A stretch of DNA of 64,000 nucleotides from Bacteroidota bacterium (GTDB taxonomy: Bacteria; Bacteroidota; Bacteroidia; Flavobacteriales_E; Vicingaceae): assembly GCA_016183805.1 (NCBI GenBank), contig JACPDX010000012.1, positions 3,195-67,194 on the forward strand, in the 5' to 3' direction. Below, in pieces: positions 35,122 through 37,885 of this stretch. The number at the start of each line of letters is the position of its first letter. The first letter of the stretch is position 1. The notes under the pieces were generated by a model. It did not search any database, had not been told where the DNA came from, and was given only the letters and a program-made list of their open reading frames with translations. The translations under genes and the position numbers were made by a program.

Positions 35122-36090
35122 TTATTTTAATTCTAAAGCAGATGCTCTTTGTCTAATCAATTGAATGTATTGTTCCTTTAATTCATCATTTAAAAAACTT
35201 ATCTGAATTAGTTCTTCAAATTGATTTAATAGAGATCCATATTTTGAAAATATTTTCTCAGTTATGGTTGAAGCAATTTTCAAGTTGGTTGCAAGTGCAA
35301 TAAAATCCTTTTTTCTGATTTTATTTTTCTTACCGTTTAAATGTAATGCCATCTGTTCTATGTCGTATTTTCCCATTACCAAATTGCTTGAAATTAAATC
35401 ATAGGCAGGTGATAACCGATATTGATGGTCTTCATTCTTAATCATCGAGAAGTTCTTCAAGTGCAAATCAGAATTGCCGATTAAAAAAGAAAAAACTGAT
35501 ATATCGAAGAATGTAATTAAATCTATACCAGGTGCTGAAGAATACTTTGCAATAGTTTTTCCAACTTGTTCCATGGTACTGCTATCGTATTTGCTTCTGC
35601 CTGTACTTGGCACTTCCATTAACTGGCAAAAATCCTCCATTGGAATTTTCTTTCCTTTCACCCTATCAAATCTTTTTGTTACATAGGTCAATTGACCTGA
35701 TGTTATTCTTAATAATGAATGTGAAGCTGTTTTTATTCTTGCCAGTTCAGCTAAATGCATGGTTAAGTCTTCATTTTCGGGAAGCGATGGATACAATTCT
35801 GATTGCGGTTTTAAAATATATTGTCCCCACAGACCTACTATTGTTAATCTTGATTTTTTCGGATCGTTGGGATCTACGTGAAGATTCAATGATAATTTTG
35901 GCTGAACTCCAGGTATGGTTACACTTAGTTCCGTAATTTGTTTTGCCATTTCCATTAACTCCTTTTTACTCAATGAGAGTATTGGTGGTGTTTCTAAACC
36001 AAAAAACTGCTTACTGCATGGAGGATGAAAATCAATTTGACCATCACTCAATGGTTTATAACAATATAAACATTGCTTATTTGCTTTCAT
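35122..36090 (-). CDS. HipT-like serine/threonine kinase toxin (C-terminal HipA part), 322 aa
   Basis: The protein carries the HipA kinase core without the N-terminal subdomain. Motifs: a Cys/His cluster CLYC...FHPPC at 7-25 (possible Zn site), Gly-rich loop SVTIPGVQPKLS (56-67), ATP Lys in QYILKP (about 94), catalytic loop IGNSDLHLKNF (Asp208, Asn213) and metal-binding SPAYDLI (Asp231). HipA-family toxins phosphorylate aminoacyl-tRNA synthetases. Ser56 and Thr58 sit where HipA/HipT loops are autophosphorylated. Its ATG overlaps the end of the HipS-like gene by 14 nt, indicating coupled translation. Target unknown. Confidence 0.87.
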   Translation of the reverse strand: MKANKQCLYCYKPLSDGQIDFHPPCSKQFFGLETPPILSLSKKELMEMAKQITELSVTIPGVQPKLSLNLHVDPNDPKKSRLTIVGLWGQYILKPQSELYPSLPENEDLTMHLAELARIKTASHSLLRITSGQLTYVTKRFDRVKGKKIPMEDFCQLMEVPSTGRSKYDSSTMEQVGKTIAKYSSAPGIDLITFFDISVFSFLIGNSDLHLKNFSMIKNEDHQYRLSPAYDLISSNLVMGKYDIEQMALHLNGKKNKIRKKDFIALATNLKIASTITEKIFSKYGSLLNQFEELIQISFLNDELKEQYIQLIRQRASALELK

Positions 36091-36433
36091 TACTTTCTAT
36101 TCTTTTAATGCTAATCGCACCAATGCAGTTACCACAAACACTTAATAATAATTCCATTCTGTCTTTCTCATTCAACTTCCAATTCTTTAAAGCAACATTT
36201 AAAAGAAATCCTTCTGGAATTAATCCGTCAAAAAACGGGATTAAATTTTCTTCATTGCGATATGGTTCTTCACGAACCGGTAAGGTTTGACTTATCGGGC
36301 CGTGAATAGGATTTTTAATATACTCTTTATTGTATTCAAAAAAATATCCGTTCTTATTCTTATCATCGTTACCAATAATCTGATAAACCATACCAACTGT
36401 TGCATCGTGAAATTTTACTATCCCTTTTTTCAT
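36077..36433 (-). CDS. HipS-like protein (HipA N-terminal subdomain), 118 aa
   Basis: Matches the N-terminal (Couple_hipA) subdomain of HipA: VGMVYQIIGNDDKNKNGYFF, ISQTLPVREEPY, and NLIPFFDGLIPEGFLLNVALKNWKL. In tripartite HipBST systems this piece is a separate protein that acts as the antitoxin. It lies between the HipB-like and HipT-like genes in B-S-T order on the minus strand, overlapping the toxin start. The split looks ancestral rather than a recent frameshift, because the toxin has its own start codon and an extra Cys/His N-terminus. Confidence 0.82.
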   Translation of the reverse strand: MKKGIVKFHDATVGMVYQIIGNDDKNKNGYFFEYNKEYIKNPIHGPISQTLPVREEPYRNEENLIPFFDGLIPEGFLLNVALKNWKLNEKDRMELLLSVCGNCIGAISIKRIESNESK

Positions 36434-36570
36434 GTGTAGATATTTATTATTCGTTCATTTTTGTTGTTAATTAATGTACTCATGAGCTCATTTCGTTCGG
36501 TTGTTTTTTTATGTCAGATGGAATACGCCATATTCTCATTTCTGTTTGTATGCTATGGTATATGGCTATT

Positions 36571-37014
36571 TCATAATGTTTGAAGATTAATGTCAGCGAT
36601 TTCATTTTGTTTTACTTCAACGAATAAAGAGTCGTCTTTTTTTTCTTTCCATTCAAGTGCTTTTGGATTAGGAAGTACTTTCCAGGCAATGATATTGCTT
36701 TTTTCATCTCTAACTTCACTCATCAAAAATCCTACAACTTGTTTTTTATCTGTCTTTGTAATTGTAACCGCCTTATTGATAAAGGTGTACCAAATTTGCC
36801 ATGGATCATTTGCATTAACGTTGGGACCAAGATGAAAACCAAAAAAAGAAAGCACTTCATTTACCTTATCGAGACGTAATTTTGAACGACCTTGTTCCAA
36901 ATCACGAATAAAATGAATACCTAAGCCAGTCATTTCTGCCAGTTGTTCTTGTGTTAACTTTTGCTTTTCCCTGTGGTACTTAACAAAAGCTGCTATGTTG
37001 CTTATTGTTTTCAT
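36571..37014 (-). CDS. HipB-like antitoxin/regulator with XRE helix-turn-helix, 147 aa
   Basis: An XRE helix-turn-helix (about 8-62: YHREKQKLTQEQLAEMTGLG, HFIRDLEQGRSKLRLDKVNEVL) precedes an 80-residue C-terminal extension with no recognised domain. It should bind DNA as a dimer and repress its own operon with the HipS/HipT proteins. Two 17-bp palindromes of one type lie directly upstream (37015-37031 and 37054-37070), the proximal one abutting the ATG. A 137-bp gap follows before hipS, with a GCCATAT/ATATGGC inverted repeat. Confidence 0.85.
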   Translation of the reverse strand: MKTISNIAAFVKYHREKQKLTQEQLAEMTGLGIHFIRDLEQGRSKLRLDKVNEVLSFFGFHLGPNVNANDPWQIWYTFINKAVTITKTDKKQVVGFLMSEVRDEKSNIIAWKVLPNPKALEWKEKKDDSLFVEVKQNEIADINLQTL

Positions 37015-37031
37015 TATACAAAAATTGTATA
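37015..37031. promoter_or_regulatory. Proximal operator-like palindrome of the HipBST module
   Basis: TATACAAAAATTGTATA, TATACA/TGTATA half sites, immediately upstream of the HipB-like ATG. Same layout as the distal copy at 37054-37070 (39-bp spacing). Confidence 0.7.
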
Positions 37032-37053
37032 TTATTTTAGTTAATCGGTATTA

Positions 37054-37070
37054 TATACAAAAATAGTATA
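37054..37070. promoter_or_regulatory. Distal operator-like palindrome containing the promoter element
   Basis: TATACAAAAATAGTATA, TATAC/GTATA half sites. On the minus strand it contains TATTTTTG (37065-37058), a perfect TAnnTTTG element, so a repressor bound here would block the promoter. Confidence 0.7.
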
Positions 37071-37171
37071 AATTATTAATATATTGAATAATTATACGAA
37101 ATTTACACATTACTCTGACAGAAACTGTTTCAAATCAAACTTTTCGGATTTAAGATTTGCTGGAAACTTTA

Positions 37172-37282
37172 GACGATGTTTGTATCATAGGCGTTAGAAT
37201 ATGATACAAAGTTTACCCTGAGTAATGTCTCACTGAGCATGTCGAAGTGTTACCGAATGGTATTACCGGTGTGAGAGTTTGA
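37172..37282 (+). repeat. Direct repeat, right copy: duplicated 3' end of the SpoIIE phosphatase gene
   Basis: GACGATGTTTGTATCATAGG and the following 14 nt match 34797-34830 exactly. The upstream codons read D-L-L-E-T-L before DDVCIIGVRI, similar but not identical to the intact gene (NDLEQL), with an in-frame stop just before. An extra 24 nt (CTCACTGAGCATGTCGAAGTG type palindromic word) separates the two conserved blocks. It may be the remnant of a tandem paralogue or a duplicated insertion target. Confidence 0.82.
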
Positions 37283-37417: not shown

Positions 37418-37852
37418 TTATTCGTTTTTCATTAAATCAAATGAAAACATTCTTAAATCATTTCGTTGAGACCATCCATTCTTGCTCCAAAATAATTGAG
37501 CCTTGTAATTCGTTTCTTTGACCATAACCATACATCTTTTAATGCCAATTTTATATAGTTTTTCTAAGCTTCTCGCAATAAGTTCTTGAGCAATTTGCTT
37601 ATTCCTGTATTTTTCGGATACTGCCAAATGATAGATAAAACCTCTTCTTCCATCATGACCACAGAGAATGGAGCCAATCAATTGATTTTTTTCTGAGTCT
37701 AAGCCAATAAAACTAAATCCTGTATTTCTAATCAAGTACTTTTTTATTTCATCCTCAGAATCACCAATGGTTAAATCAATACCTCTGGTATTTGCCCATA
37801 AATTTATGGCAGACTTAATATGGCTTTCGTTCATTTCAAAATACTGAATCAT
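37418..37852 (-). CDS. GNAT-family N-acetyltransferase, 144 aa
   Basis: Standard single-domain GNAT: beta strand SILCGHDGRRGFIYHLAVSE, acetyl-CoA loop KYRNKQIAQELIARSL (an R/Q-x-x-x-x-A variant), and the C-terminal NYKAQLFWSKNGW. The ATG at 37852 (MIQYFEMNES) is chosen; an upstream in-frame TTG at 37873 has no support. Substrate unknown. An inverted repeat (37886-37945) lies upstream. Confidence 0.85.
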   Translation of the reverse strand: MIQYFEMNESHIKSAINLWANTRGIDLTIGDSEDEIKKYLIRNTGFSFIGLDSEKNQLIGSILCGHDGRRGFIYHLAVSEKYRNKQIAQELIARSLEKLYKIGIKRCMVMVKETNYKAQLFWSKNGWSQRNDLRMFSFDLMKNE

Positions 37853-37885
37853 TCTTTCTTTTATTTCTACCAACTTATTTATACT

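Follow-up and report, generated by a model that had tools for sequence, protein, structure and literature searches.

Whether a toxin-antitoxin operon controls its own expression can sometimes be read from the DNA immediately upstream of its first gene. Here the question concerns a HipB-like gene in a 64,000-nucleotide stretch of a Bacteroidota genome (the whole of which we call the window), in front of which an earlier note had seen two matching palindromes and an autoregulatory layout. We consider it highly probable (roughly 0.86), from comparison of related sequences, that these palindromes are operators through which a HipBST-type operon represses itself. Autoregulation through operators is a known kind of control, and the operators here have their own sequence, length and spacing. 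Features discussed below are collected in Table 1.

Table 1. Features of the hipB locus, in window coordinates
Feature	Coordinates	Strand	Description
hipB-like gene	36571..37014	-	147 aa; HTH at residues ~1-62, C-terminal domain at ~70-147
hipS-like gene	36077..36433	-	118 aa; Couple_hipA domain alone
hipT-like gene	35122..36090	-	322 aa; HipA_C kinase domain alone
Putative operator O1	37015..37031	-	TATACAATTTTTGTATA on coding strand; touches hipB ATG
Putative operator O2	37054..37070	-	TATACTATTTTTGTATA on coding strand; holds -7 element
Putative operator O3, decayed	37093..37109	-	39 bp past O2; 3 of 10 core positions differ (by eye)
-7 promoter element TAnnTTTG	37058..37065	-	TATTTTTG; wholly within O2
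141-bp insertion, copy of a dispersed structured element	36434..36574	-	In the ATGA overlap of hipB stop and hipS start

A tripartite operon with a split kinase

The three genes lie on one strand in the order hipB-hipS-hipT. Among Pfam families, Couple_hipA was found only in the 118-residue protein (E 1.2e-19) and HipA_C only in the 322-residue protein (E 1.9e-46); HipS is thus the N-terminal domain of HipA on its own and HipT the kinase without it, the same division as in Legionella-type HipBST. The product of the first gene matched Pfam HTH_3 (PF01381) with 32.4 bits, above the gathering score of 23, along with weaker HTH models, and reached 66.8 bits against the NCBIfam model TIGR03070 (couple_hipB, Y4mF antitoxin), below its curated cut-off of 71.65. 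For all three proteins the best solved relatives by sequence belong to Legionella HipBST, namely HipB(Lp) 8ezt (E 1.2e-05), HipS(Lp) 7vkb_B (E 6.8e-10) and HipT(Lp) 7vkb_A (E 1.8e-54, with other HipT structures from E 7.1e-15). The alignment to solved HipT retains the DxHLKNFS and SPAYDL segments, which are presumably catalytic. In the window and at all 14 distinct orthologous loci, hipB is succeeded by both hipS and hipT. Judged by these sequence relations, the first gene encodes the HipB of a three-gene, HipBST-type system closest to that of Legionella rather than the HipB of a hipBA pair; the earlier assignment to the HipB family stands, with the amendments that the operon has three genes and that the protein carries an extra C-terminal domain.

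More general collections placed HipB among general regulators and HipS and HipT in families of unknown function (PHROGs), or returned HTH controllers for HipB and PDC-M03A for HipT (PADLOC; E 5.3e-10, 37.3 bits for the latter). A gene for a GNAT-type acetyltransferase (37418-37873, minus strand) lies about 400 bp upstream of hipB and runs in the same direction.

Palindromes upstream of hipB

The proximal palindrome, O1 (TATACAAAAATTGTATA), is a 17-mer with 7-bp arms and a 3-bp centre that adjoins the hipB ATG, whose complement occupies 37012-37014, and the distal one, O2 (TATACAAAAATAGTATA), follows after 39 bp, start to start. Each is a perfect match to TATAC-N7-GTATA. The earlier note was therefore right as to the two palindromes, their places, the abutment of the first on the start codon and the distance to the second, and its count of two operators needs enlarging: both are real, and the row has a third, decayed member, O3 (TATACGAAATTTACACA), which keeps the 39-bp step beyond O2. 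An independent repeat search returned O3 as a 77% copy of O1 over 22 nt, 78 bp away.

That such palindromes arose by chance in AT-rich DNA might be argued from a scan of the window alone allowing three mismatches, which found 5 operator-like sites against 4.22 expected and has no significance. Two perfect copies within the 140 bp upstream of hipB were nevertheless reached in none of 20,000 dinucleotide shuffles (at least one copy in 25), and a looser test that accepted any repeated palindrome with the same 5-nt arm and the same spacer of 4-10 was satisfied by 72 of 5,000. Since, in addition, relatives whose HipB is 55-90% identical keep the sites at the same place and spacing, this leaves chance a negligible probability, and we rejected it. 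Across the 3.47-Mb genome, TATAC-N7-GTATA occurs at four places, two of them upstream of hipB and the others at C49 and C54, a genomic total at the level of the reversed-pattern control, which occurs at five. The weight of the palindrome evidence lies in exactness, position and conservation.

The hipB upstream region also holds a perfect inverted repeat of 11 bp with a 10-nt loop at 37179-37210 (TTTGTATCATA / TATGATACAAA), which is followed by no T-run on the minus strand and was not among the pairs returned by the repeat search.

Rows of putative operators in relatives

HipB homologues came from 11 loci in genome contigs, from 9 of 46 genomes of the family and from 10 of 395 genomes of the class (counts that overlap and include the window); the order-level draw comprised the same 46 genomes as the family draw, and a phylum draw of 395 genomes gave no HipB relative beyond the window. 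Operator rows were drawn from the best matches found and are no census of relatives. With three loci dropped as repeats (L025-L027, of L014, L017 and L016, respectively), the full-length relatives of 143-152 aa yielded 15 distinct upstream regions including that of the window, which fall into an N7 clade of five (the window and L014-L017) and a second group of ten (L028, L006-L010 and L029-L032).

When up to 2 mismatches and a spacer of 7 or 8 are allowed, two or more TATAC/GTATA sites are present in every one of the 14 upstream regions other than the window's, which lends support to the autoregulatory layout proposed earlier from the window sequence. With up to one mismatch, the N7 clade has 12 sites of spacer 7 against a mean of 0.38 and a maximum of 3 in 200 shuffles (other spacers, 0-2), and the second group has 12 sites of spacer 8 against a mean of 0.34 and a maximum of 3 (other spacers, 0-3), although the upstream regions are related sequences and the shuffles overstate the significance of these counts. 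Within the N7 clade, counterparts of O1 at -17 and of O2 at -56/-57 are present in all five upstream regions (two mismatches in L015 for the former, one each in L014 and L015 for the latter). The counterpart of O3 at -97 has 0, 0 and 1 mismatches in L015, L016 and L017, being intact or nearly so in these three; in the window and, judged by eye, L014 the site has decayed. Rows thus stand at -97/-57/-17 in L015-L017, and at -104/-64/-24 in L030 of the second group. The division by spacer is imperfect, the middle site of L006, L029, L031 and L032 (4 of 10 in the second group) fitting N7 with 1-2 mismatches.

Shorter HipB-like genes have similar sites. Seven of them (L011, L012, L018-L021 and L024) carry N8 sites, spaced 36-41 bp apart except at L019, which has a single site; a stop interrupts the frame of L012. 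A single N8 site stands at L013 and none with up to one mismatch at L022, in a scan of the short-HipB loci that left out L023. Relatives of both HipS and HipT follow at L011, L013 and L018, a HipT relative alone follows at L019 and L020, and neither was present in the flanking DNA examined at L012 and L021-L024. At L021, three perfect TATAC-N8-GTATA sites lie exactly 36 bp apart and unusually far out, 145-217 bases upstream of the hipB-like match.

These distributions bear on the possibility that the palindromes serve a different DNA-binding protein as operators, with HipB regulating elsewhere or not at all. In favour of this, HipB is no more than the presumed reader of the TATAC half-sites, short AT-rich palindromes would suit many regulators, and hip operators vary by system, passages of one report describing the Legionella hipBST promoter as having neither known hipBA operator motif (PMC10653801). 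Rows of TATAC/GTATA sites nevertheless precede hipB-like genes in hosts as distant as a Nitrospirae metagenome-assembled genome (L018) and Chlorobium (L024), and in the window's own genome the perfect pattern recurs at only two other places, its total no higher than that of the reversed control, which makes a foreign regulator quite unlikely.

Among the loci examined, the common arrangement is thus a row in which 18-bp sites recur about every 40 bp, and in the window's clade each site has become one base shorter, with the gap still about 22-23 bp. The five N7 members group together (support 0.997) in a tree built from 21 HipB rows, their sister being L028, an N8 member (0.864), and it is simplest to suppose that the contraction from N8 to N7 happened once, in the ancestor of the N7 clade. 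The HipB segment GVGIHFIRDLEQG, which from HTH anatomy presumably holds the recognition helix, is identical in the N7 members L015-L017 and the N8 members L019 and L020. The change is therefore more likely to lie in the way the pair of HipB subunits is positioned than in the reading of bases. The N7 and N8 groups, one base apart and in some members sharing the same presumed recognition helix, form a natural pair with which it becomes testable how an Xre-family dimer changes the length of its operator.

Predicted promoter and expected start site

The distal palindrome holds a perfect TAnnTTTG on the coding strand (read from 37065 to 37058), as the earlier note had observed. For Bacteroides and Flavobacterium, passages of one report give TAnnTTTG as the -7 consensus and, for Flavobacterium, identify no -33 motif (PMC7366714). 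The hipB promoter is like a Bacteroidota sigma-A promoter in its perfect -7 element and differs from it in that no -33 TTTG was seen upstream of that element. TAnnTTTG recurs at -51/-52, within the middle operator, in all five N7-clade upstream regions, and at -29 to -42, its last bases overlapping the proximal operator, in eight of the ten of the second group, the exceptions being L008 (TATATTTA) and L028 (TATCTTTA); neither count, taken over the last 70 nt, was reached in any of 500 shuffles. An operator thus overlaps the -7 element in 13 of 15 upstream regions, which is the position that a repressor needs. The same recurrence supports the earlier prediction of a start site at about 37050. 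A scan for the sigma-70 consensus was set aside, since it stood at chance level (14 found, 13.3 expected); its best pair, TTAATA-18-TATAAT (10 of 12 positions, 37079-37050), overlaps O2 and is retained as a caveat.

As an alternative, the proximal palindrome might act chiefly through an RNA hairpin next to the start codon of hipB, controlling translation, rather than as a DNA site. The leader does fold into a 7-bp stem just before the AUG (-4.8 kcal/mol in the window, -5.2 in L014), and in L016 and L017 the AUG is itself part of another fold (-4.6). The stem is, however, weak and nearly all A-U, any perfect DNA palindrome would yield one, and the motif is repeated at O2 and O3, which overlap the expected start site or lie upstream of it. 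We regard translation control as highly improbable and retain the DNA operators.

Proposed autoregulation and comparison with known systems

HipB dimers would bind up to three 17-bp TATAC-N7-GTATA operators 39-40 bp apart. Since O2 covers the -7 element, HipB bound there would block the housekeeping sigma factor; O1, which spans the region from the expected start site to the ATG, and O3 upstream would both strengthen repression. By analogy with Legionella in vitro, the complex of HipB with its DNA probably also takes in HipT and HipS. What the sequences show directly is the sites in their even row, conserved along with the -7 element, together with the operon and its gene families; HipB binding, repression, cooperativity and the participation of HipT and HipS are inferred.

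Passages on Legionella pneumophila HipBST offer the nearest comparison (PMC10653801). There HipB binds an evenly spaced set of three operators, one of which (O1) covers the predicted promoter, and addition of HipT, by itself or together with HipS, gives another shift in vitro. The window system is alike in gene order, domain split and three evenly spaced putative operators with one over the promoter, the third being decayed in the window, but the Legionella operators are described as 18 nt long with 53-bp gaps, against 17 nt and 22-bp gaps in the window, and the HipB(Lp) chain in 8ezt has 76 aa, against 147 aa with an extra domain. Legionella O1 was still shifted by HipB once its symmetry had been abolished (PMC10653801, passages cited), so symmetry need not be what HipB reads.

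HipBST of Escherichia coli O127, in which HipT targets TrpS, shares the split kinase with HipS, and HipB is reported in the passages cited to be required and sufficient for repression of its promoter (PMC10627512). Its relation by sequence is much weaker (HipT E 7.1e-15), and the Legionella operator motifs are described as absent from it in the relevant passages of PMC10653801. The hipBA operon of E. coli K-12 also has an Xre-type HTH repressor and several palindromic operators before the operon. Its four cooperatively bound sites are given as TATCC-N8-GGATA in the passages cited (PMC3376134, PMC3920265), and an operator of that type was rejected for the window, where the sequence is TATAC-N7-GTATA. 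The earlier note was accordingly correct that the operator sequence is unlike that of classic HipB and mistaken that the half-site spacing is like it, the two spacers being one base apart. O1 and O2 of K-12 lie 28 bp apart, start to start, when counted from the oligonucleotide printed in PMC3376134, against 39 bp here, and the window kinase is split into two genes. Caulobacter hipBA1 and hipBA2 are alike in having three palindromic operator sites per promoter (PMC8545095, passages cited) and differ in being two-gene systems.

The literature searched described no operator for a Bacteroidota HipBST. The rows reported here offer a conserved operator model for HipBST in that phylum, where such systems are reported to be widespread, the Legionella type being described as widely distributed and particularly so in the FCB superphylum (PMC10653801, in part).

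The C-terminal domain of HipB

A model of the whole HipB reached pLDDT 80.5 and pTM 0.48, its HTH part best matching HipB(Lp) (Foldseek E 1.4e-3), and the added domain modelled alone from five sequences reached pLDDT 89.5 and pTM 0.76, with a helix, three strands, a helix and two strands in that order. Foldseek matched the added domain mainly to Sm, LSm and Hfq chains (best E only 0.011). VIA-align of these matches gave a best Z of 8.7 (Hfq 3hfo_B, rmsd 2.3, 62 residues aligned), a modest lead given that Z below 8 may reflect a mere common arrangement; by title, 48 of the 50 rows listed are Hfq, the rest being Gemin6 and YaeO. From these models, the domain (36574-36819, residues about 66/70-147) is likely to have an Sm/Hfq-like fold. 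Among 12 members scanned, Pfam returned five families up to E 10, none of them Sm, LSm or Hfq (its filters drop most weak matches), and a profile of the domain gave no PDB match up to E 10. The profile matched 11 of 395 genomes, ten of them, partly by construction, through the full-length HipBs from which it was built; the eleventh match is a weak one to a stand-alone 73-aa frame (L148, E 2.3e-05), for which neither Pfam nor the PDB gave an Sm match.

If the fold is as modelled, HipB might be an HTH repressor with a built-in Hfq/Sm-like domain that multimerises, clamping the three operators at their 39-40-bp spacing, or that binds RNA and acts on the operon's own AU-rich mRNA leader. The confidence with which the domain is modelled is in its favour; short HipBs that lack the domain nevertheless keep a similar row, so the row can do without it, and sequence searches give no link to Sm or Hfq. 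We hold this reading to be rather unlikely. Were it true, a single repressor would connect the autoregulation of a toxin-antitoxin operon at the level of DNA with that at the level of RNA. The literature searched gave no fitting case of an HTH antitoxin that carries an Sm- or Hfq-like domain; the zinc-finger-Hfq fusions of archaeal plasmids (PMC3543421, passages cited) are a different thing.

A dispersed element between hipB and hipS

Like the Sm-like domain, the DNA between hipB and hipS is a question of its own. At all 14 distinct orthologous loci the hipS match starts between -3 and +13 nt from the hipB stop, as against a gap of 137 nt in the window, and compared with L014, whose hipB stop and hipS start share an ATGA, the window is longer by 141 bp. 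The insertion is a copy, with extra sequence in the middle, of an element of about 95 nt (ATGAAATAGCC...TTCCATNTGAC...AATAAATATCTACANATGAA) that opens with ATGAAATAG and closes at ATGAA, usually a start codon, other copies being those of L033-L048 and L053-L099. With it in place the hipB stop and the hipS start no longer overlap, and translation of HipS, presumed to be the antitoxin, would therefore have to proceed from the element's own leader.

A covariance model found 20 matches in this genome (E up to 0.01), 112 matches in 12 of 46 family genomes (E up to 0.001) and the element in 22 of 395 class genomes (E up to 1e-6). The ATG at the right end opens a frame of at least 50 aa at 38 of 47 fetched element loci, the window copy being scored as a miss because its match to the model stops early. 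Of the 506 remaining ATGAA sites at these loci, 112 open such a frame. In an alignment of 47 distinct rows that was fitted to the model, 89.0% of cells form pairs (25-39% when the pairing is slid), and both sides change at 13 of 20 pairs. The right end, start codon included, is paired with a CATNTG inside the element, with one mismatch (by eye) in the window copy.

The element is likely a small mobile element with ATGAA as its target; ATGA is also a target of HEARO/IscB elements. As regards a non-autonomous element of IS200/IS605 type, a Y1 transposase is not supported as the partner, the paired ends being found beside none of 30 fetched Y1_Tnp matches (of 31; flanks up to 1.5 kb), and a Y1 match (E up to 1e-8) was absent from 6 of the 12 element-bearing genomes, which are drafts and in which non-autonomous copies would need no gene of their own. 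Rfam had no family for the insertion or in eight element loci, its sole match up to E 1 being a sub-threshold snoRNA at 36685-36738, outside the insertion, and nothing fitting the element was found in the literature searched. In one genome, three element matches stand in tandem with 5-base overlaps (G012:C104:58134-58411), as if inserted into each other's ATGAA end.
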